This document shows positions 1-9,800 of a stretch of DNA of 44,343 bases, in pieces. The first letter of the stretch is position 1. Each line of letters begins with the position of its first letter. Source of the DNA: Eggerthellaceae bacterium (lineage in GTDB: Bacteria; Actinomycetota; Coriobacteriia; Coriobacteriales; Eggerthellaceae); assembly GCA_022792415.1 (NCBI GenBank), contig JAAWAY010000212.1, forward strand, positions 1 through 44,343. The letters run 5' to 3'. The notes beneath the pieces were generated by a model. It saw only the letters and a program-made list of their open reading frames with translations, did not search any database and was not told the origin of the DNA. A program made the translations under genes and the position numbers.

Positions 1-1
1 G

Positions 2-805
2 CGCGAGAAGGAGAGCAACATCTCCATGCGCATCACCGAGCTGGAGGACAAGAGCGGCATCGAGGTGGCCGGCCGCGGCGTGCTGCACCTGTCGGTGCTG
101 ATGGAGACGATGCGCCGCGAGGGCTTCGAGTTCCAGGTGGGCCGCCCGCGCGTGGTGTACAAGACCGCCGAGGACGGCAGCAAGCTGGAGCCCATCGAGG
201 AGGCCACCGTCGACGTGCCCAACGAGTACGCCGGCAAGGCCATCGAGGTGATGGGCACGGCGGGCGGCATCATGGAGGACATGGCCCAGGACGAGACCAT
301 GACCCACCTGACGTTCCGCATCCCCTCGCGCGGCACGATGGGACTGAAGACGCGCATCCTCAACGCCACCCACGGCGAGGCGGTGCTGTTCCACCACTTC
401 AAGGAGTACGGCCCGTACTCGGGCGAGATGGCCGGGCGCAAGAACGGCGGCATGATCGCCATGTCCACCGGCAAGGCCGTGGCCTACGCGCTCGACACCC
501 TGCAGGAACGCGGCCGGCTGTTCGTCGAGCCGGGTGACGAGTGCTACGAGGGCATGATCGTGGGCGAGTCCGCCAAGGAAGGCGACATGGTGGTCAACGT
601 CGAGAAGACGAAGAACTTGGGCAACCAGCGCTCGTCCACCGCGGATAAGGCCATCCAGCTGACGCCGCCCATCACGTTCACCTTGGAAGAGGCGCTCGAG
701 TACATCGAGGACGACGAGCTGGTGGAGGTGACGCCGCAGTCCATCCGCCTGCGTAAGCGCCTGCTGTCCGCCACCGACCGCAAGAAGGCGGCCAAGCGCG
801 CGTAG
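2..805 (+). CDS. typA: Ribosome-associated GTPase TypA/BipA, C-terminal part (5' end outside window)
   Basis: This is the C-terminal ~267 residues of TypA/BipA, a translational GTPase of the EF-G/LepA family that binds the ribosome and affects 50S assembly and stress growth. The reading frame is open from base 2, so the ATG at 26 used by the ORF track is internal and the gene starts upstream of the window. The stretch GIEVAGRGVLHLSVLMETMRR matches the domain III/V junction of the family. The unique C-terminal domain is complete: LQERGRLFVEPGDECYEGM, then NLGNQRSS, then the late motif DELVEVTPQSIRLRKR. The G domain with its GTP-binding motifs is not visible. The TAG stop at 803-805 is followed by 520 bases without a gene. 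The family assignment is secure; only the missing N-terminus limits it. Confidence 0.96.
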   Translation, partial: REKESNISMRITELEDKSGIEVAGRGVLHLSVLMETMRREGFEFQVGRPRVVYKTAEDGSKLEPIEEATVDVPNEYAGKAIEVMGTAGGIMEDMAQDETMTHLTFRIPSRGTMGLKTRILNATHGEAVLFHHFKEYGPYSGEMAGRKNGGMIAMSTGKAVAYALDTLQERGRLFVEPGDECYEGMIVGESAKEGDMVVNVEKTKNLGNQRSSTADKAIQLTPPITFTLEEALEYIEDDELVEVTPQSIRLRKRLLSATDRKKAAKRA

Positions 806-816
806 CCGCACTGCGG

Positions 817-928
817 CGGGGCGACCGACCTGCGAAGGACGGGCGACCGACCCGCGGGGGAGGGGAACCCGACCTGAGGCTGCGGGGCGACCGACCTGCG
901 AAGGACGCGCGACCGACCCGCGGGGGAC
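817..928. repeat. Direct repeat, period 66 bp, two copies
   Basis: The block beginning CGGGGCGACCGACCTGCGAA at 817 recurs at 883. About 44 of the 66 bases are conserved almost perfectly, differing for example at 842/908. Within each copy the word GCGACCGACC is itself repeated with the variant GCGACCGACCCGCGGGGGA, and a further degenerate unit follows at about 930. It lies directly downstream of the typA stop. Its function is unknown; it may be a decayed intergenic repeat element. Confidence 0.7.
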
Positions 929-982
929 GGGCGCCCGACCCGCGGCGGACGTCGCCGGGATCCGCCGTGGCGGGGCGCGCGG

Positions 983-1010
983 TTGACACGACCGGGCGGG
1001 CTGACATGAT
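983..1010 (+). promoter_or_regulatory. Sigma70-type promoter (TTGACA-N16-CATGAT)
   Basis: A perfect -35 hexamer TTGACA lies at 983-988 and a 4/6 -10 hexamer CATGAT at 1005-1010, spaced 16 bp. Transcription would start near 1017, immediately before a cluster of stem-loops and about 310 bases before the isomerase gene. It could drive a short RNA, a leader for that gene, or both. Confidence 0.45.
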
Positions 1011-1015
1011 GAGAC

Positions 1016-1085
1016 GAGCCGGGGGCCGGGCGGGATGACCGCCCGGCTCCCTGTGGGAGGGGGCTGCCGAGGAGCGGCCCCCTTT
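1016..1085 (+). ncRNA. Candidate structured small RNA or attenuator-like leader
   Basis: Downstream of the TTGACA promoter, GCCGGGCGG (1025-1033) pairs with CCGCCCGGC (1039-1047) around a 5-nt loop. An alternative pairing joins GAGCCGGG (1016-1023) to CCCGGCTC (1042-1049), and CTCCC (1047-1051) can pair with GGGAG (1055-1059), so the structures exclude one another. A last hairpin, GGGGGC (1059-1064) with GCCCCC (1077-1082), is followed by only TTT, so termination there would be weak. The promoter, competing stems and terminal hairpin fit either a ~70-nt sRNA or an attenuator of the isomerase gene. No known RNA family was recognised. Confidence 0.3.
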
Positions 1086-1328
1086 CGCGTTCTGCGCTCT
1101 TCAACTCTGCCCTTGGGGCAGCTTTCCCGGTCGCTTCGTCGCAGGTGAGCGGCGAATTCGGCGTCGGTCGGATCGATGTGTCCGTCGCCTGTGAAGCGAA
1201 AGTGGTCATATTGTGAGAGGCGCGACCGTCGCGGCGGCCGTGTGTGACAATACACGCGAATTGACCATGGGAGCCGATGCCCAAAAACGCGCATCAAAGA
1301 CCGGTGCCCATGATAGAGAAAGGCGATC

Positions 1329-2549
1329 ATGAAGAAGCTATCTGTCGCGAAATCCGTCTGCGCCGCCGGATTGGCCCTCGCCTGCGTTTGGGGCATCGCC
1401 GGCTGCTCGGGCGGGACCACCGTCAACGGCGTCAAGCTGACCGGGGGCACCGCCGCCACCGTCAACGGCACCGCCATCCCCGAGGACGACGTCACGCTGG
1501 AGGTGCAGGCCATCCGCGAGCGCATGGCGCTGACCGACGAGCAGGCGTGGGGCGAGTGGATGGCCCAGAACGACTTCACCCCCGAGACCGTGCGCGAGCA
1601 GGTCATCGAGACGCTGGTGAACCAGGAGCTGGTGCGTCAGCTGTCCAAGGACAGCGACATCGTGGTGGAGAAGGCCGAGATCGACTCGTACGTGGACGAC
1701 ATGCGCTCGCGCTACGACACGCAGGAGCAGTGGGAGGCCGCCCTGGAGGCCGCCGGCCTCACCGAGGACGAGTATCGTGAGAGCATCGAGCTGTCGCTGC
1801 TGTCCAACCGCCTGATGGAGACCATCGACACCGAGAGCGAGCCCGCCGCCGAGGACATGCTGAACTACGCGAAGATGTTCGCGTCCAGCTACGACGGGGC
1901 CAAGAAGTCGAGCCACATCCTGTTCTCGTCTGACGACGAGGCCACGGCCCAGGAGGTGCTGGACAAGATCAACTCCGGCGAGCTGGACTTCGCCGCCGCC
2001 GCGCAGCAGTACTCCAAGGACACCGGCTCGGCCGCCGCGGGTGGCGATGTGGGCTGGGATAAGCTGACCTCGTTCGTCACCGAGTACCAGACGGCGCTCG
2101 ACGGCCTGGATGAGGGCGCGGTCAGCGGGCTGGTGCCCAGCCAGTTCGGCATCCACATCATCAAGTGCACCGACGTGTTCGAGGCGCCCGAGGAGGTCAC
2201 GAGCACCGACCAGCTGCCCGAGGAGTTCGTCGAGTCCATCAGCACGATGCTCACCCAGAGCCAGAGCTCGCAGAACTACAGCACGTGGCTGAGCGAGCAG
2301 CGCGAGACGGCCGACGTGGTGATCAACCCGATGCCCGAGGGGCTGCCGTACTATGTGGACATGACCCAGTTCGAGACGGAGGACGAGACCGTCGACGAGA
2401 GCACCGTGGTGTCGCCGGATGACCTGATCGTGCCGGAGGGCTCCACCGACGGGTCGGCCGTGACGGCCGAGGGCTCTGACGCGGAGGGCACCGACGGCGC
2501 GACCGAGGGTGCGACCGAGGGCTCGACGGGGTCCGGCGCGGCCAACTAG
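1329..2549 (+). CDS. Parvulin-type peptidyl-prolyl isomerase lipoprotein (PrsA/SurA-like), copy 1
   Basis: A 406-residue extracytoplasmic foldase that would catalyse cis-trans isomerisation of prolyl bonds in exported proteins. The start has GAAAGG five bases upstream. Residues 1-25 form a lipoprotein signal peptide with lipobox IAGC, lipidated Cys26. Residues ~40-170 resemble a SurA-type N-terminal chaperone region (TVNGTAIPEDDV, then helical Glu-rich sequence). The parvulin domain (~195-290) shows SSHILF, the GGDVGWD turn and the closing FGIHIIKC. The C-terminus is a Gly/Ser/Glu/Thr-rich disordered tail ending in GSGAAN. A paralog with the same architecture lies 1.9 kb downstream at 4434. 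A strong terminator follows. The class is clear; the client is unknown, though the giant exported protein in this window is a plausible one (inference). Confidence 0.9.
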   Translation: MKKLSVAKSVCAAGLALACVWGIAGCSGGTTVNGVKLTGGTAATVNGTAIPEDDVTLEVQAIRERMALTDEQAWGEWMAQNDFTPETVREQVIETLVNQELVRQLSKDSDIVVEKAEIDSYVDDMRSRYDTQEQWEAALEAAGLTEDEYRESIELSLLSNRLMETIDTESEPAAEDMLNYAKMFASSYDGAKKSSHILFSSDDEATAQEVLDKINSGELDFAAAAQQYSKDTGSAAAGGDVGWDKLTSFVTEYQTALDGLDEGAVSGLVPSQFGIHIIKCTDVFEAPEEVTSTDQLPEEFVESISTMLTQSQSSQNYSTWLSEQRETADVVINPMPEGLPYYVDMTQFETEDETVDESTVVSPDDLIVPEGSTDGSAVTAEGSDAEGTDGATEGATEGSTGSGAAN

Positions 2550-2613
2550 CGGACGCGGCGGGCACGGCGCGCGGGCGCGCGGGCGCGCGACTGCGACCGA
2601 GTGAGCGAACAGG

Positions 2614-2645
2614 GGAGGCTTCCGCCGGTGGCGGGAGCCTCCTTT
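2614..2645 (+). terminator. Rho-independent terminator of isomerase copy 1
   Basis: GGAGGCT (2614-2620) pairs with AGCCTCC (2636-2642). The stem continues inward through a T-G wobble and CCGCC/GGCGG to a 3-base loop, 13 pairs in all, followed by TTT. It lies 65 bases after the stop codon. Confidence 0.85.
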
Positions 2646-2694
2646 CACGTGGGGCGTGGGATGGAGGATGCGGAGCGTCGCGCCAGGCGTGTCG

Positions 2695-2714
2695 AATGTT
2701 TCACGTGAAACATT
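2695..2714. promoter_or_regulatory. parS site 1 (ParB-binding centromere)
   Basis: The 16-bp core at 2697-2712, TGTTTCACGTGAAACA, is a perfect palindrome matching the widely conserved bacterial parS consensus, extended by one A/T pair and a further pair on each side to 20 bp. ParB-CTP clamps load at such sites to organise the origin region and direct ParA-driven segregation. It lies 39 bases upstream of the chosen ABC ATPase start. A longer start at 2656 would translate parS into protein (VSRETF), a typical annotation artefact. A 10/16 degenerate half-site (TTTCACGTG) occurs at 2643-2651. Confidence 0.92.
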
Positions 2715-2751
2715 TGTTTGGGCGATTCGACTGAGAAGAGGGGGCGACGAC

Positions 2752-3543
2752 ATGGCGGACGTGCCGTTTCTGGAGCTGCGCGACGCGGTGGTGCGCCGTG
2801 CGGGGCGAGACATCCTGGCCGTGGACGAGCTGATCGTCCCCGAGGGGCAGTCCCTGGCGCTGCTGGGGCCCAACGGCGCGGGGAAGTCCACGCTGGTGCG
2901 GCTGATCACCCGCGAGGTGCTGCCCCTCCACCGCGACGAGCCCCCGGTGCTGTTTCGCGGCGATCCGCGCGCCACGCTCGCTGACGTGAAGCGGGCGCTG
3001 GGCGTGGTGTCCTCGAGCATGCAGGACCAGATAGCCGTGCACCTCCCCGCGTGGGAGCTGGTGGCGGGCGGGCTGTTCGGCAGCGTGGGCGTGCCTCGGC
3101 GCGTGGATGCCTCGCCCGACCAGCGGCGCCGCGCGCTCGACGCGATGGACGAGCTGGGGATAGCGGATCTGGCAGAACGGGACATCATGACGTTGTCCAC
3201 GGGGCAGGCCCGGCGGGTGCTCATCGCCAAGGCACTGGTGGCTGACCCGCGCGCGTTGGTGTTCGACGAGCCGTGCACGGGGCTCGACCCCGAGGGCATG
3301 TACCACGTGCGGCGAGCGATGTCCGAGCTGGCACGGAGCGGGCGGGCGGTGGTGTTGGTCACCCACTATCCCGAGGACATCGTTCCCGAGATCGATCGTC
3401 TGCTGCTGATACGCGACGGCCGCGTGGTGGCCGATGGGCCCAAGTCCCAGCTGCTCACCGGCCCGGTGATGAGCGACCTGTTCGGCGTGCCCCTGCGGGT
3501 GATGGAGGAAGATGGGCACTATGCCCTGCGCGCCGCGGACTGA
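2752..3543 (+). CDS. ABC-type ATPase, ModF-like (COG1119 type), no permease nearby
   Basis: A 263-residue single ATP-binding cassette. Walker A is GPNGAGKST (residues 39-47). The signature is LSTGQ rather than LSGGQ. Walker B is ALVFDEPCTGLDP and the switch His lies in VTHYPEDIVPEID. The run VTHYPEDIVPEIDRLLLIRDGR resembles ModF-like ATPases historically linked to molybdenum transport or photorepair. I chose ATG 2752 because AAGAGGGGG precedes it by about eight bases and because the upstream start at 2656 (ORF track) would run through the parS site. No membrane permease or binding protein is adjacent, so the true partner, if any, is encoded elsewhere. A short CCGGC/GCCGG hairpin follows the stop. 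The family is fairly sure; the substrate is unknown. Confidence 0.88.
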   Translation: MADVPFLELRDAVVRRAGRDILAVDELIVPEGQSLALLGPNGAGKSTLVRLITREVLPLHRDEPPVLFRGDPRATLADVKRALGVVSSSMQDQIAVHLPAWELVAGGLFGSVGVPRRVDASPDQRRRALDAMDELGIADLAERDIMTLSTGQARRVLIAKALVADPRALVFDEPCTGLDPEGMYHVRRAMSELARSGRAVVLVTHYPEDIVPEIDRLLLIRDGRVVADGPKSQLLTGPVMSDLFGVPLRVMEEDGHYALRAAD

Positions 3544-3610
3544 CCGGCGGCCTGCCGGTTGAATCGGCGCCCGCGGAGCGGTTCGCCTGTCGCGGGAAAA
3601 GGTCGCCGGG

Positions 3611-3637
3611 AAAAGAAAAAGCCCCGAGAAGGGGCTT
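3611..3637 (-). terminator. Rho-independent terminator after the tRNA-Ser genes
   Basis: Read on the - strand, AAGCCCC (3637-3631) pairs with GGGGCTT (3625-3619) around a 5-nt loop and is followed by TTTTTCTTTT (3620-3611). It sits 8 bases downstream of the encoded CCA end of the tRNA. Confidence 0.85.
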
Positions 3638-3645
3638 CGAAAATC

Positions 3646-3738
3646 TGGCGGAGGAGGAGGGATTCGAACCCTCGTCACCGGGGTTACCGGTGAAACGGTT
3701 TTCGAGACCGCCGCATTCAACCACTCTGCCACCCCTCC
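3646..3738 (-). tRNA. tRNA-Ser (anticodon CGA)
   Basis: The - strand begins GGAGGGGTGGCAGAGTGG and ends with the acceptor CTCCTCC, discriminator G and encoded CCA. The acceptor has seven pairs, one of them G-U. The anticodon loop is CT-CGA-AA, with the anticodon at 3702-3704. A long class II variable arm (CACCGG..CCGGTG) is present, as expected for serine. The T arm is GAGGG-TTCGAAT-CCCTC. It would read UCG codons. It shares orientation with the second tRNA-Ser 130 bases upstream and is followed by a clear terminator. Confidence 0.95.
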
Positions 3739-3868
3739 GCTGGGGTGTGGCGCCGAATGCCCTGTGGCGCTGGCGCCGCGTCGGGTGCCGCGTGATGCGA
3801 CCGACCCGGGTCTTCTTCCCGCAGGAGCGACTCGCGTGATCCAGGGGGAAGGGATTGGTAAGCGTTAG

Positions 3869-3960
3869 TGGCGGAGAGGCGGGGATTCGAACCCCGGATA
3901 CGCTTTTGGCGCATACACGATTTCCAATCGTGCTCCTTCGGCCAGCTCGGACACCTCTCC
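3869..3960 (-). tRNA. tRNA-Ser (anticodon GGA)
   Basis: The - strand begins GGAGAGGTGTCCGAG and ends CCTCTCC-G-CCA. The anticodon stem CACGA/TCGTG encloses loop TT-GGA-AA, giving anticodon GGA for UCC/UCU codons. The variable arm is long (TGCGCC..GGCGTA type), typical of serine tRNAs, and the T arm is CGGGG-TTCGAAT-CCCCG. A well-spaced promoter lies 45 bases upstream on the - strand. The 78-residue ORF of the track over this gene (AGIRTPDT) is the usual tRNA-Ser shadow peptide. Confidence 0.95.
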
Positions 3961-4004
3961 GCTGCTTACAGGCGCACCGGCTCGCGCCGATGCAGCGAAT
4001 ATGT

Positions 4005-4033
4005 AGTATAGCGGAGCGGCCCCCCGCTCACAA
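4005..4033 (-). promoter_or_regulatory. Promoter of the tRNA-Ser pair (TTGTGA-N17-TATACT)
   Basis: On the - strand a -35 box TTGTGA (4033-4028) and a -10 box TATACT (4010-4005) are separated by exactly 17 bases. The predicted start near 3998 gives a ~38-base leader before the GGA tRNA. It may also feed the CGA tRNA. Confidence 0.7.
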
Positions 4034-4433
4034 GCGTTCTTTTCGCCAGCGGGGAGTTACGAGTGGCTCGAGAATTCTGTATGCACTTTAGTTAGAAAGC
4101 CGTACAATGGCAACGTTGCGCTGCGACCCGGGCGAGCTCGTTCCGCCAGGGCCGCATGGGTTCCGCAGCGCGGCACATTCCATTCCCTGGGCGAGCGTTT
4201 TCTGCCCATCCTCGGAGTCGTCGCCCCGCTCCTCACGTCATCGCAATCCTGGGCGAACGCCGCGCCGATTCTGCGGTCGTTTCGGTAATTCGCGCATACA
4301 GGCCGTGCTCATTCGAAGAACCTGTGGAGACTTGCGGTTTTGCCCACGTCATCGGGCGTCTTTCAGCCTATTTTCAGGTTGATGTGACTAAAATGGGGCA
4401 GCTTTGAAACGTAACAGAAAGGTTACAGCACTC
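4034..4433 (+). other. Gene-free stretch upstream of isomerase copy 2, with weak promoter
   Basis: No supported gene is seen; ORFs 4107-4382 and 4156-4407 lack a convincing ribosome site and protein-like composition. A TACAAT box at 4103-4108 has no clear -35. A second -10-like box, TAAAAT, at 4389-4394 lies 39 bases before the gene start and is the better candidate for the proximal promoter, again without a good -35. AGAAAGG at 4416-4422 is the ribosome-binding site for ATG 4434. Confidence 0.4.
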
Positions 4434-5657
4434 ATGATCAAACTCTCTAGCTTCAAGCGCGTTGGCGCCGTGGCGGTTTCCGCGGCCCTCATCGCTACGC
4501 TGGCCGGCTGCTCCGGCGGCGGCAGCGGCATCTCCGACACGTCGCAGGGCACCGCTGCCACGCTCAACGGCAAGCCCATCGGCGAGAAGGCCATCACCGA
4601 CTACATCGTGGACTTCCGCGAGTCGATGGACCTGACCGACGACGACGCGTGGGCCCAGTGGATGGTATCCAACGGTTACACGCCCGAGAGCGTCCGCACC
4701 GAGGTCATCAACTACTACGCCGACCAGATGCTCTACGAGCAGGCGGCCGAGGAGAACGACATCAAGGTCGAGCAGTCCGAGATCGACGAGGCTCTGGAGC
4801 AGGCCAAGGCCATGTTCGACTCCGACGAGGAGTGGAAAGAGGCCCTGGAGCAGAGCGGCATGACCGAGGAGGAGTACGTCAACGACATCCTCCGCATGAG
4901 CCTGCTCACGCAGAAGCTCGAGGAGGCCGTGGTCAGCGACTCCGGCGAGGGCACCAGCGACGCCGAGCTGCTGGCCTACCTGCAGGACAACGCCGCGCTG
5001 ATGGACGGCACCAAGCGCTCCAGCCACATCCTGTTCAACTCCGCCGATGCCGAGACCGCCGCTGACGTGCTCGATCGCATCAACTCCGGCGAGCTGGACT
5101 TCGCTGAGGCGGCCGAGCAGTATTCCACCGACGCTGCCAGCGCGGCCAGCGGCGGCGACGTGGGCTGGGATGCGACGGCCTCCTTCGTGACCGACTACCA
5201 GAACGCCCTGGACGGTCTGGAGGTCAACCAGGTGAGCGACCTGGTGGAGAGCACCTACGGCATCCACATCATCAAGTGCACGGACGTTTACAACGTGCCC
5301 GAGGAGGGCGTGACCTCCCTGGGCGAGGTGCCCGAGGAGATCGTCGAGACGGTGCGCACCAACATGTCCGCCAGCACCAGCGGCACCTCGTTCTACACCT
5401 GGTACACCGAGTACCGTGAGGCCGCCGAGCTCGAGATCAACCCGATGCCCTCCGGCCTGTCCTACGACGTGGATCTGTCCGAGTACGAGTCTGCTGCCAC
5501 GAACAACGTGCTGAGCTACGATGACGCGTACAGCAGCTACACCACGGATGACACCTACGTGGACGACAGTGCCGCCGCCGGCTCCTCCGACGCCGCGGGC
5601 TCCGCTGACGCCGCCGGCTCGTCCGACAGCGCTCAGGGCAGCACGACCAGCAACTAA
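4434..5657 (+). CDS. Parvulin-type peptidyl-prolyl isomerase lipoprotein (PrsA/SurA-like), copy 2
   Basis: A 407-residue paralog of the gene at 1329. The ORF track starts at a TTG (4404), but ATG 4434 is preferred: AGAAAGG lies 11 bases upstream and this start places the lipobox LAGC with Cys26 exactly where copy 1 has it. The N-terminal chaperone-like region begins TLNGKPIGEKAITDY. The parvulin domain (~205-300) shows SSHILF, NSGELDFAEAAEQYS, GGDVGWD and YGIHIIKC. The C-terminus is a Ser/Ala/Gly/Asp-rich tail (AAGSSDAAGSADAAGSSD). The protein should sit on the outer face of the membrane and help secreted proteins fold. Both copies keep the core parvulin signature; tails and linkers diverge most, which argues for an old duplication. 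A strong terminator follows, so it is probably monocistronic. Confidence 0.9.
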   Translation: MIKLSSFKRVGAVAVSAALIATLAGCSGGGSGISDTSQGTAATLNGKPIGEKAITDYIVDFRESMDLTDDDAWAQWMVSNGYTPESVRTEVINYYADQMLYEQAAEENDIKVEQSEIDEALEQAKAMFDSDEEWKEALEQSGMTEEEYVNDILRMSLLTQKLEEAVVSDSGEGTSDAELLAYLQDNAALMDGTKRSSHILFNSADAETAADVLDRINSGELDFAEAAEQYSTDAASAASGGDVGWDATASFVTDYQNALDGLEVNQVSDLVESTYGIHIIKCTDVYNVPEEGVTSLGEVPEEIVETVRTNMSASTSGTSFYTWYTEYREAAELEINPMPSGLSYDVDLSEYESAATNNVLSYDDAYSSYTTDDTYVDDSAAAGSSDAAGSADAAGSSDSAQGSTTSN

Positions 5658-5706
5658 CCCGCAAGGGACTTGCGTCCCTCAGCGAAACAGTTTGAGATTC
5701 AAAGAA

Positions 5707-5740
5707 AATCCCGTCCCACCTGGGGCGGGATTTTTCTTTT
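5707..5740 (+). terminator. Rho-independent terminator of isomerase copy 2
   Basis: AATCCCGTCCC (5707-5717) pairs with GGGGCGGGATT (5722-5732) through one G-U pair around loop ACCT, followed by TTTTTCTTTT. Confidence 0.92.
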
Positions 5741-6060
5741 CCCACCAACGAAAACGAACCAACGAAAGTAAAACAACGAATACAGACGCAACCAAATTAG
5801 GGCCAACCAAAACGAAGTAGTCAAGCCGAGACAAACCAAGTCGAGACCAATTAAGACGACAAGACGAAGCCAACTAAGCCAAGACCAGCCAAAGTGAGGC
5901 CAACTAAAACGGGAGAAGTCAAACCAGGAGAGAAGAGAACGAGTCGCTCAGAGTCAAGCAGCTAAAACGAACCGACCGAAACGGAAGCGAGTTATGGACG
6001 AAGGCCTAAAGTGCCACACCGGAGTAGCGCAAGGGACTTCGGCAAAGAGGAATGACAGAG
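5741..6060. other. T-depleted, A/C/G-rich spacer with degenerate CCAA words
   Basis: No gene is seen. T makes up about 8% of 5741-6000 on the + strand (20 of 260 by hand count) against a roughly even A/C/G remainder. Short words recur irregularly: GCCAACYAA (three times), AACGAA, ACCAA and AGACGA. The pattern is not a clean tandem array and not CRISPR-like. It lies between the terminator of isomerase copy 2 and the second parS. Confidence 0.7.
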
Positions 6061-6073
6061 CAAGGAGAACGAA

Positions 6074-6115
6074 GTGGGGCGTGGGATGTTTCACGTGAAA
6101 CATACCACGCCCCAC
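6074..6115. promoter_or_regulatory. parS site 2 within a 42-bp near-perfect palindrome
   Basis: The same 16-bp parS core as at 2697 lies at 6087-6102. Here the dyad symmetry runs on through GTGGGGCGTGG on the left (6074-6084) and CCACGCCCCAC on the right (6105-6115), with only G6085/A6104 mismatched. The left flank GTGGGGCGTGGGATG also occurs at 2649-2663, 33 bases before parS 1. The right arm can alternatively pair with TGGGGC at 6123-6128. The core is expected to load ParB; the role of the extended arms is unknown. Confidence 0.92.
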
Positions 6116-6140
6116 GTGCATATGGGGCACAACGGATTGT

Positions 6141-6428
6141 CGAGGGGGAAGGCGGCAAGAGCAGGGGAAAGAAGGCACGCAGGAGAAGAGAGGGAAATCA
6201 GCGAGAAAAGAGGGAGAGAGACGGAGCAGATTCGAGTCGGAAGACTCGGTAGATGGAAAGCTCGGAGGGAGAAGGCGAAGAGAAATCGGGATGAGAGAGC
6301 GGGAGAAAAAGGGAGGGAAAGGAGAGAAAGGAGGGAAGGGAGGGAAAGGAGGGAAAGGAGGGAAAGGAGGCAGGAGAAAGGAGGGAAGGGAAGGGAGGGC
6401 GGAATCGGGGCGGAAAGGGGTTGGTAAA
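6141..6428. repeat. Polypurine (GA) tract with 9-bp GAGGGAAAG repeats and G-quadruplex motifs
   Basis: The + strand is almost purely purine for nearly 300 bases. The core at 6301-6400 contains about 3.5 clean units of GAGGGAAAG (about 6340-6370) among degenerate copies. The run 6383-6399 has four GGG tracts with loops of 2, 2 and 1 bases, a textbook G-quadruplex motif; another lies at 6333-6353. Such mirror-like GA tracts can also form triplex DNA or stable R-loops. No gene is supported: the ORFs translating it are Lys/Glu/Arg/Gly monotony. Confidence 0.88.
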
Positions 6429-6647
6429 ACAACGAATTACGGAATTTTTGTCATGAAAAACGAGGCGCGGATGAGATCGCGAAAATGCGCGAGATTTGGC
6501 GGATGCGGGGTGGGTGGGGGAGGGGTGAGTGGGTGTCCCGAAATTGGTCAACTTGGAGGGCGCTCAAAATACGTCTCTGCAGGTCATGAATGGGATTTTG
6601 GCGGAGACAGTTAGAAAATCAACGGTTTCAGAAATACCTCGATTCGA

Positions 6648-6676
6648 TTGCATTATTGTAACGCCTTGTTTACAAT
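6648..6676 (+). promoter_or_regulatory. Promoter of the giant gene (TTGCAT-N17-TACAAT)
   Basis: A -35-like TTGCAT (6648-6653, 3/6) and a strong -10 TACAAT (6671-6676, 5/6) are 17 bases apart in a locally AT-rich island (about 6590-6690). Transcription would begin near 6683, leaving a ~180-base leader. The -10 box is one arm of an inverted repeat, which suggests regulation. Confidence 0.55.
6655..6676. promoter_or_regulatory. Candidate operator: inverted repeat ATTGTAA-N8-TTACAAT
   Basis: Perfect 7-bp arms at 6655-6661 and 6670-6676 straddle the spacer and -10 box of the giant-gene promoter. The 22-bp size and position suit a dimeric repressor. No regulator gene is visible in the window, so the protein is unknown. 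Confidence 0.5.
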
Positions 6677-6682
6677 CAATCT

Positions 6683-6853
6683 CGGAAGTTTGGCAAGACT
6701 TCCGGGTTTGAGCGTTGCCGAGGCACACCGGTGAAACAGCCTCGGAGTCAGAGTGGCGGAAGGCAGGCAAGACCTTCTGCGAAAACTGAATAGCGAGATC
6801 AGGCAATCCGTCCGCGCCTTGCGTGCGCGTGGCGGAATCCGTCGTCAAAGTAT
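6683..6853 (+). promoter_or_regulatory. Structured 5' leader of the giant gene with a duplicated stem-loop
   Basis: CGGAAGT (6683-6689) pairs with ACTTCCG (6698-6704). CCGAGGC (6718-6724) pairs with GCCTCGG (6739-6745). GAAGG (6759-6763) pairs with CCTTC (6773-6777). The first and third hairpins share sequence: CGGAAG-N3-GGCAAGAC recurs at 74-base offset with 14 of 17 bases identical. There is no poly-T run. No riboswitch consensus was recognised. Confidence 0.45.
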
Positions 6854-6864
6854 GGTGAGAGCGT

Positions 6865-9800
6865 ATGCATGACAATCGAAACTCCCACGATAATCGCGAC
6901 CTTGAAGCCGCGTATATACGCGCGCGCGAGGAATCGCACCCTGAGGCTCCGATAGGAGACGCGACGAGAGACGCGGCCTACGATGCGTACGTAGCCGCCC
7001 GCACCACGGAGTCCCGTGCGTCTCGTCGTGCCCTGGCCCGGGCGGAGCGCACGCGCGCCCGCGCGGCCGCACGCGCACGCGCGTATAAGGGGGGTTCCGA
7101 GGAGGCCGCCGCCGTGGATGCCGAGCCCCGCTCCTTCCGCACCCGGACGTGGGTGAAGGCCGTCTCCACCGTGATGGCCGTGCTGCTGGCCGTGACGATG
7201 TTCGACATCAGCGGCCTGCGCCCCGTGCTGTTCGACGCGGCCGAGGACGACGCCGCCGCCGAGACGGCCGAGCCCGTGGCTGCTGACGACGCGGCCGACG
7301 AGGGCGAGGAGCTGGCCGACACCGGCGACGCCACCGGCGACGACGCCACCGAGGACGACGCTGCAGCCGAGGGCCCCAACGAGCCGACGCCCGTGGCCGC
7401 CGACGACGGCGCCGAGCCCGCGGACGACGCCGACGCCACCGACGACGCCGAGGCCGCCGAGGAGCAGACCCTGCTGGAGGCCGTCGTCTCCGAGCCGCTG
7501 AGCGAGGACGCCCTGGCCGCCCTGCTGCCCGAGGGCCTGCAGGGCGCCGACACCGTGCTGCCCCAGCTCACCACCGACACCACCGATGCCGATGACCTGG
7601 CCGCCCGCGTCGACCCGCGCCTGGACGCGTGGGGCGCCCCGCTGGTGAACGGCTCGGCGTTCTACGTGCGCGACCGCCGCGTCTCCGCCCGCTTCGACCT
7701 GGGCAACCTGGGCGAGCTGCTGGAGGGCGGCTACGTGGCCGGCAGCGACGAGGGCGACGTGATGGTCCTGACGCTGGACCTGCCCTACCTGTACCGCACC
7801 GGCGAGGACACGCTGGACGCGACCTTCTCGCAGGAGGAGTGGCGCCTGCGCTCCGCCCTGTGGAACGAGGCCACCAAGGCCGGCAACGCCGACGCCTCCT
7901 ACGAGGACGTGGCCCTGGCCGCGGCCGCCCGCGCCGCCGACCCCGCCGACACGGCCCGCGCCCCGCGCGCCGCTCTGTACGCCGACGCCATCCCCGTTGG
8001 CTGGACGGTGTGGCAGGAGCACGCCGGCCAGTACGTGCAGCTGACGGACGACGACCTCAAGGCCGGCGCCTCGGGTCACCTCGTGCTGCGCTGGGAGGGC
8101 TCCGACGAGGATCGCCCCCATCAGTTGAGCGCCGCCGACGCCGCGTTCGCCCCCGCCTTCGAGCTGGGCTTCGCCGGCGTCGCGCCCGAGAACGCGGGCA
8201 CCACCGTCACGTACGGCTACGCGCTGAACAGCTACACCGCGCCGCTGAGCGAGCGCGCCCAGGCCATCGCCGCCACCGACCCCGACGCGCCCGAGGCCCA
8301 GCCCCAGGTGACCATCGCCAGCGTGTCGCGCTCGGCCGCCGGGTCTATCGCCATGGTCAACGCCTCGTCCAAGGCCAAGGCCACGCTGTCGGCGTCCTCG
8401 ATTGACGGTGCCAGCATGCCCCAGGCGGGCGGCCACGGCACCGGCTGGTGGGCGCTCATGGCCACCTACGCTGTGCCCCGCGACGTCATCGCCACCAACT
8501 CGGTGGCGCTTTCTGTGCAGTGGCGCGCCGACTGGCAGGGCAAGAACGGCATCCCCGCCGCCGGCGCCGCGCGCTTCCGCGTAGCAAAGGACGACGAGGA
8601 GACCGAGGACGGCTACGTCGATCAGCTGACCATCGAGGAGGGCGGCGTCGACGTCTCCCCCGAGGCGCTGGCCGACAACACCTACGTGGGCGTGCCCGGC
8701 AAGGGCGGCGTGGTGGTGCTGGACGTCACCGAGCTGTCCGACCGCCAGCGCGCCTCTATCGACCCGTCCGACGCGTCCACCATCGAGGCGCTCGGCCTGG
8801 AGCCCATCCCCTACACCGTCAACGCCGACGGCACCATCCTGGTGACGCGCGACCGCAGCCAGGGCCGCGTCGAGCCCGAGAAGGAGCGCGTGCTGTACGT
8901 GGCCGCTGCCTTCGACGAGAGCGCGCTCACCTGGGCCGACAAGCAGAATCCCGACGACCCCAACGAGCAGCCGGCCTACAACCCCGTCAGCGCCACCCTC
9001 GGTCTGCAGGCCGCCAGCGTCGACAACGGGAACCCGGTGTACCTGACCGAGATCATCGACCTGTCCACCACCTTCGCCCCCGTCGACGCCCCGGCCGTCT
9101 CGCAGCCCGGCGACGACGCCGACGCCGACGACCCCGCCACCGACGGAGACGACAGCGCCGACGACCCCGCTGTCGAGCCCGGCGACGACGTCGACGCCCC
9201 CGCGGCCGACGAGCCCCAGGGCGACGTCAACCTGCCCAACGGCCCCACCATCGAGTACGCCCCCACGCCGGGCAACCTGATGACCAACTTCGGCACGTTC
9301 TCCATGACGCGTCCGCTCATGGCCGCGGCCGCCCCGCGCGCCGGCGAGCCCGACTGGAACACCATCATGGACCCCTACTCCACGCTGCTCACCGAGAACG
9401 AGGCCCTGCCGGGCACGGTGAACACGTGGCTCATCAAGGGCGTGCAGGAGCCCACCCGCATCAACCTGACGGCCGACTTCAACTTCAACATCGGCTACCT
9501 GGGCGACATGCAGAACAAGACGAAGTTCACCGTGCAGATCCCGTACCTGTACTTCGACGACAAGAACTCGGTGTGGCAGGCCTACACCTACGAGGAGTAC
9601 CAGTCCAAGATCAAGCAGTACCTCAGCTACAACCAGAACAACGCCATGCGCCTGGCGCTCATCCCCGACACCAGCTTCTGGAAGCAGTGGGACGTGGTGG
9701 ACGACCGCAACCGCCCCATCACGGCGCAGACGTACAACGCCTACTACAAGGACGGCCTGACGGGCTCGTTCACGTTCTCGTACAAGGGCCTCAACGCTCG

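Follow-up and report, generated by a model that had tools for sequence, protein, structure and literature searches.

The parS site is usually taught as a lone sequence of 14–16 bp, with one to about twenty copies per genome close to the replication origin. The locus analysed here raises the question of how a 42-bp palindrome came to form around such a site, and what its arms might do. It is located in a stretch of 44,343 nucleotides from an Eggerthellaceae bacterium (the window), corresponding to contig C81 of a 2.39-Mb assembly that is 77% complete. A first-pass annotation had offered three roles for the arms, namely the binding of another protein, extrusion as a cruciform or membership of a mobile repeat carrying parS.

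Structure and context of the palindrome

To begin with, an inverted-repeat search of the window returned two arms of 21 nt each (6074-6094 and 6095-6115), 95% complementary and with no spacer between them, in agreement with the 42-bp palindrome with a single mismatched pair that had been annotated around parS. The sole mismatch, G6085/A6104, lies directly outside the 18-bp core ATGTTTCACGTGAAACAT (6086-6103), and the 16-bp centre matched exactly the parS consensus as used in PMC10197239, which confirmed the identity assigned to it (Table 1). The exact core TTTCACGTGAAA appeared at two positions of the window, 6089 and 2699, the second of them within parS 1. Moreover, the arm GTGGGGCGTGG occupies 6074-6084 and, in reverse complement, 6105-6115, with a further copy at 2649-2659. 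This last copy belongs to a shared piece of 15 nt (GTGGGGCGTGGGATG, 2649-2663) that sits 33 bp before parS 1; one flank is thus repeated next to that site, as annotated, although this constitutes weak evidence because about 4% of the non-coding 42-mers of the region have an exact match of at least 15 nt elsewhere in it.

Table 1. Features around the parS-centred palindrome, in window coordinates
Feature	Positions	Strand	Basis or remark
PPIase A	1329-2549	+	SurA/PrsA-like, PPIC-type
TTTCAC followed by the 15-nt left-arm copy (GTGGGGCGTGGGATG)	2643-2663	+	Partial repeat of uncertain meaning
parS 1	2697-2712	.	Exact over 16 bp; just four perfect pairs (AATG/CATT) beyond the 12-bp core, long arm absent
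PPIase B	4404-5657	+	Paralogue of PPIase A; upstream neighbour of the palindrome
Intrinsic terminator of PPIase B	5705-5738	+	Ordinary terminator
Near-perfect 42-bp palindrome (21 + 21 nt)	6074-6115	.	Inverted repeat, hairpin fold, swap control
Left arm outside the 18-bp dyad, GTGGGGCGTGGG	6074-6085	+
16-bp parS, TGTTTCACGTGAAACA, inside the perfect 18-bp dyad 6086-6103	6087-6102	.	Exact match to consensus
Right arm outside the 18-bp dyad, ACCACGCCCCAC	6104-6115	+

The genome of the window (G000) encodes ParA and ParB beside dnaA, rnpA, yidC, jag and rsmG, together with a dense parS cluster on contig C142. There, about 18 parS sites were counted in about 6 kb (L016:15000-L017:930), interleaved with rlmN, parB, parA, rsmG, jag and yidC. 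Furthermore, a parS was found downstream of the PPIase A orthologue in the four species of the genus examined (G000, G001, G002 and G003), and in G001 and G002 this orthologue lies about 25 kb from parB. As the window is a contig of its own, the origin-proximal position of its site was derived from this synteny. With its exact 16-bp core, a genome that also encodes ParA and ParB, and proximity to parB (by synteny only), the sequence at 6087-6102 is classified as a chromosomal parS of the ParB/Spo0J type.

Between the paralogous genes of PPIase A and B, both PPIC-type foldases, lie tRNA genes and a gene for an ABC-ATPase, and a tRNA was the sole match to known RNA families in window positions 1-7500. 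In the open frame of 12,438 codons downstream of the palindrome (6865-44181), Pfam detected InlB B-repeat-like and SdrD B-like domains, so that its product is probably a repetitive surface protein of giant size. The 800 bp or so of non-coding DNA ahead of this gene (5740-6560) are extremely purine-rich on the + strand, with an AT skew of up to 0.8, a GC skew of up to 0.77 and repeats of the GGGAGGGAAAGG type.

Regarding transcription, the RNA hairpin predicted for the palindrome reached −38.1 kcal/mol (z = −5.5 against dinucleotide shuffles), comparable to the stable GC-rich hairpin of an intrinsic terminator. No T-tract was found directly after the stem on the + strand (GTGCATAT), and the sequence following it on the − strand (TTCGTTCT) is merely T-rich, with no − strand gene predicted there. 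Nor does the palindrome lie just after a gene stop, being 417 bp beyond that of PPIase B. It was consequently ruled out as the terminator of this gene, given the missing T-run, the wrong place and the ordinary terminator that intervenes.

Symmetry of the arms across the family

The symmetry of the arms was compared with a swap control, in which the left flank of one site was combined with the right flank of another from the same genome, so that column composition and any consensus were preserved. Of the 15 positions next to the 12-bp core, 14 are paired between the two flanks of the window site; the 1892 left/right swaps, made among 44 sites from its genome, gave at most 13 pairs. Moreover, perfect arms of at least 8 outside the 12-bp core were more frequent than expected from swaps in every genome examined: 4 of 44 sites in G000 (0.6 expected), 12 of 79 in G001 (0.5), 16 of 49 in G025 (0.4), 10 of 99 in G006 (0.8) and 7 of 32 in G034 (0.3). 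The same was found in the parS-poor or intermediate genera of the family (12 of 34 sites, 0.12 expected) and in other actinobacterial families (5 of 70, 0.04 expected). In 838 kb of sequence, 46 perfect zero-loop palindromes of at least 28 bp were centred on parS and one was located elsewhere; in terms of palindromes extending from 16 to 28 bp, the proportions were 46 of 267 for parS and 1 of 42 for the others (p = 0.01).

At the locus itself, just 4 arm pairs flank the parS at the corresponding position of G001, and no parS was found in the stretch examined after PPIase B in G002. This lack of conservation is what a chance symmetry around an ordinary parS has in its favour, and the first-pass annotation had taken the absence of the arms from related strains as a sign of chance. 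The absence was real at this locus, but the conclusion did not follow, as symmetric arms of differing sequence are common family-wide. With no swap attaining the symmetry of the window site and an excess of arms in all the genomes examined, chance was ruled out, its probability being practically nil, and the annotated impression of arms beyond chance was upheld. On these comparisons, the window element is classed as a real parS with arms of the type present in the family.

The long arms of different sites were unrelated to each other beyond the first few bases beside the core, and at orthologous positions (one genome per species) parS was kept while both arms changed together. Since comparing G025 with G061 and G062 at the DNA level gave a single alignable site, a protein-anchored comparison was used instead. 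After yidC, in eight species with arms of 5-13, 49 of 64 arm pairs were formed compared to 30.7 (sd 4.2) in swaps, and the covariation score of the alignment (A3) was 0.69 vs. 0.22 when shuffled. In genus g5, the palindrome just 3′ of parB, between convergent genes (L108:2307-2350, L266-L269), also has a parS core, with arms of 12-14 in five species, one of them with a mismatch beside the core. In the corresponding alignment (A2), both bases had changed in 10 of 12 pairs and just one of them in no pair, with a covariation score of 0.98 vs. 0.35 when shuffled. Interior mismatches (4 G.T, 2 A.C and 4 others) were too few for G.T against A.C to tell RNA-level from DNA-level selection, and showed no clear wobble preference, which fits copying of DNA; the overall G.T excess was accounted for by composition.

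Such arms are hard to reconcile with recognition of their sequence by a protein. A second sequence-specific protein, as initially suggested, found no support and was ruled out, given that the arms differ at every site and are not conserved at orthologous ones. It is also very improbable that ParB or a partner reads more bases, with the arms forming a longer binding site: a weak consensus beside the core was detected in G000 (gaacgaRTG...CAYtcgttc), but the arms differ site by site, the swap control already removes any consensus, and independent half-sites cannot covary beyond it. Because independent half-site recognition by ParB gives no left-right correlation beyond the consensus, a cause at the level of the hairpin (templated copying and/or selection) is needed.

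A mobile repeat carrying parS has, if anything, even less in its favour. The 15-nt arm piece preceded by TTTCAC near parS 1 could be a trace of it, as could double-parS elements with similar linkers in G006. Against this, no second copy of the whole arm turned up in the flanks of 45 sites or in the 184 kb of G000 sequence examined, and the arms of different sites are unrelated, which leaves the suggestion of a mobile repeat unsupported for the window site. Overall, among the three roles offered, the cruciform/hairpin class seems to fit best, because the symmetry is present without sequence conservation and the arms covary. A function of the cruciform as such, in which the palindromes would extrude in supercoiled DNA and aid ParB loading or SMC recruitment, is nevertheless improbable. 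It would account for a symmetry that counts regardless of sequence and for an enrichment specific to parS, but most parS of the same genomes have short arms, so that these are unnecessary for a parS, and easy extrusion is not expected of GC-rich arms.

Terminator-like hairpins and the proposed origin of the arms

Among sites with arms of at least 8, a T-rich tail (at least 4 T in the next 8 bases) was found on 17 of 33 sides just after a nearby gene stop (52%), compared to 4 of 41 other sides (10%; p = 9e−5), where distances and categories carry the error of gene calls made with a simple codon-usage predictor. Judging by stem and tail, about one in two long-arm sites that closely follow a gene fuses parS with a predicted intrinsic terminator. 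For instance, jag of G000 (C142) is followed by a parS palindrome with 13-bp arms and then CTTTTTTT, while jag in G002, G006, G034 and G025 has an ordinary terminator and a separate parS. Similarly, a parS palindrome with a T-rich tail follows BipA in G001, where G006 has an ordinary terminator, and another follows gene L221 of G001, with an ordinary terminator in G000.

These observations speak for selection on RNA hairpins alone, in which terminators, attenuators or 3′-end stabilisers would have parS set in their loop and the compensatory changes would reflect RNA pairing. The stability of the predicted hairpins, the replacement of ordinary terminators by parS-terminators at orthologous genes, and the covarying stem kept after parB in the five species of genus g5 point in the same direction. 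However, arms of at least 6 were found at 10 of 35 sites between divergent genes and at 11 of 39 inside genes; because long arms also appear in such places, terminators are insufficient as the sole cause. Moreover, alignment A2 lacks the one-sided (G-U) intermediates, interior mismatches have no wobble preference, and the window site has neither a U-tract nor the position of a terminator. Selection on RNA hairpins alone is therefore considered unlikely, albeit the most credible of the alternatives.

Slightly better than even chances are given, on sequence evidence, to the window site being an origin-proximal ParB nucleation site whose 18-bp dyad was enlarged into a hairpin-forming palindrome by copying at the hairpin level. 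As with any other parS, ParB would bind to the 16-bp centre, and the arms would most likely be no recognition sequence. During replication, the nascent strand may fold back on the parS palindrome, and one flank would then be inversely copied onto the other by template switching of the quasipalindrome type. The resulting hairpins would be kept where useful, as intrinsic terminators in about half of those with long arms. As for the arms in the window, they could delimit transcription ahead of the giant gene or be a neutral by-product.

Template switching predicts unique arms, perfection at the DNA level and no one-sided intermediates, all of which were observed. In addition, after yidC of G062, the coding left arm, stop codon included, reappears as its mirror image in the right arm, and this left flank is coding sequence common to its relatives, which is suggestive for G061/G062. 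According to PMC7202029 and PMC8794818, template switching homogenises inverted repeats in E. coli and can create and maintain RNA hairpins. Counting against the enlargement reading are the mismatched pair beside the window core, the arms unconserved at the window locus, the missing + strand T-run of the window site and its place 417 bp beyond the gene stop and behind another terminator, and the fact that covariation would also be expected from strong hairpin selection. Probably, both template switching and terminator selection act.

A more tentative proposal, to which we give somewhat less than even chances, is that parS in this family is a dual-function element, one palindrome nucleating ParB and terminating transcription, with arms that grow and are repaired by template switching. 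If true, ParB occupancy at 100 or more sites would be physically coupled to the formation of transcript 3′ ends, and the dual-function elements would include the terminator after parB itself in one genus.

Number of parS sites and comparison with known systems

Counting only the exact 12-bp core, for which reversed-pattern controls gave 0-1, at least 45 parS were found in G000, 115 in G001, 129 in G002 and 110-151 in G006, G025, G061 and genus g32, while most other genera of the family had 2-15. In a phylum sample of 297 genomes, the maximum outside the family was 33, in one genus with genomes of 6-10 Mb. In G000, one ParB scored above the cut-off, with N-terminal and HTH domains, and no second ParB (Noc-like paralogue) was found above it in G000, G001, G002, G006, G025 or G034. 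A ParB duplication was thereby ruled out as the reason for the many sites, a single standard ParB having been found.

In G001, 66 of the 115 cores were within about 100 kb of parB, and the 207-377 kb section of its contig C1 was noted for its cores, several genera of the family having more than 100 per genome. In the closed chromosome of G006, among the 100 sites listed, 40 were within 100 kb of parB and 32 more than 1 Mb away. On inspection of these sites, 8 cores appeared at 557-619 kb of C1, near the point opposite parB, which is an unexpected place for parS. For additional parS far from the origin, tolerance has been reported only up to about 600 kb from the native locus (PMC7333895). Furthermore, of 276 sites placed relative to genes, 215 were between genes, 39 within genes and 22 at locus edges, the intergenic share of the DNA being only 14-19%.

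The elements described here share with the chromosomal ParABS parS of the ParB/Spo0J family the same 16-bp sequence, a single ParB, a ParA and an origin cluster beside dnaA. They differ in that the flanks are mirrored into long palindromes, and in number, G000 having 45 sites and the family reaching 151, with a chromosome-wide distribution in G006, compared to the 1 to 20-23 per genome given in reviews. Streptomyces-type arrays (about 20 sites) likewise place many parS in an actinobacterial genome, and the highest counts outside the family (8-33) belong to the genus with 6-10 Mb genomes, which is presumably Streptomyces-like; the parS-rich genomes of the family have 3-5 times more sites at half the genome size or less. 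With intrinsic (Rho-independent) terminators, about half of the long-arm sites share the GC-rich hairpin and T-rich tail, but the palindromes of the family are zero-loop stems with parS at the apex, and that of the window has no T-run.

As in the quasipalindrome template-switch mutation described in PMC7202029 (E. coli) and PMC8794818 (hairpin origin), one arm may be perfected from the other and the symmetric arms are unique, except that here the process would recur at one protein-binding palindrome. REP/BIME-type repeats are also intergenic palindromes, some of them terminator-like; here, only the parS centre is common and the arms form no repeat family.

No earlier reports were found among open-licence papers. 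The pattern, little noticed so far, is that genomes of one bacterial family can hold more than 100 parS, many of them as perfect hairpins and some apparently doubling as stop signals. Gut actinobacteria with more than 100 exact sites, one genome being closed, and with parS seemingly merged into terminator hairpins, make it testable why the number of parS varies and whether partition complexes are coupled to transcription. Moreover, the perfect covarying arms may serve as a natural record of the way in which a protein-binding dyad becomes the centre of a long palindrome.

Finally, pairs of parS 34-36 bp apart were observed scattered on the chromosome of G006 (L078, L083, L089, L092, L098, L106, L196 and L205), several of them with a similar linker (CATCTGTTTGCGC...), which makes a dispersed double-parS element possible in this other genus.
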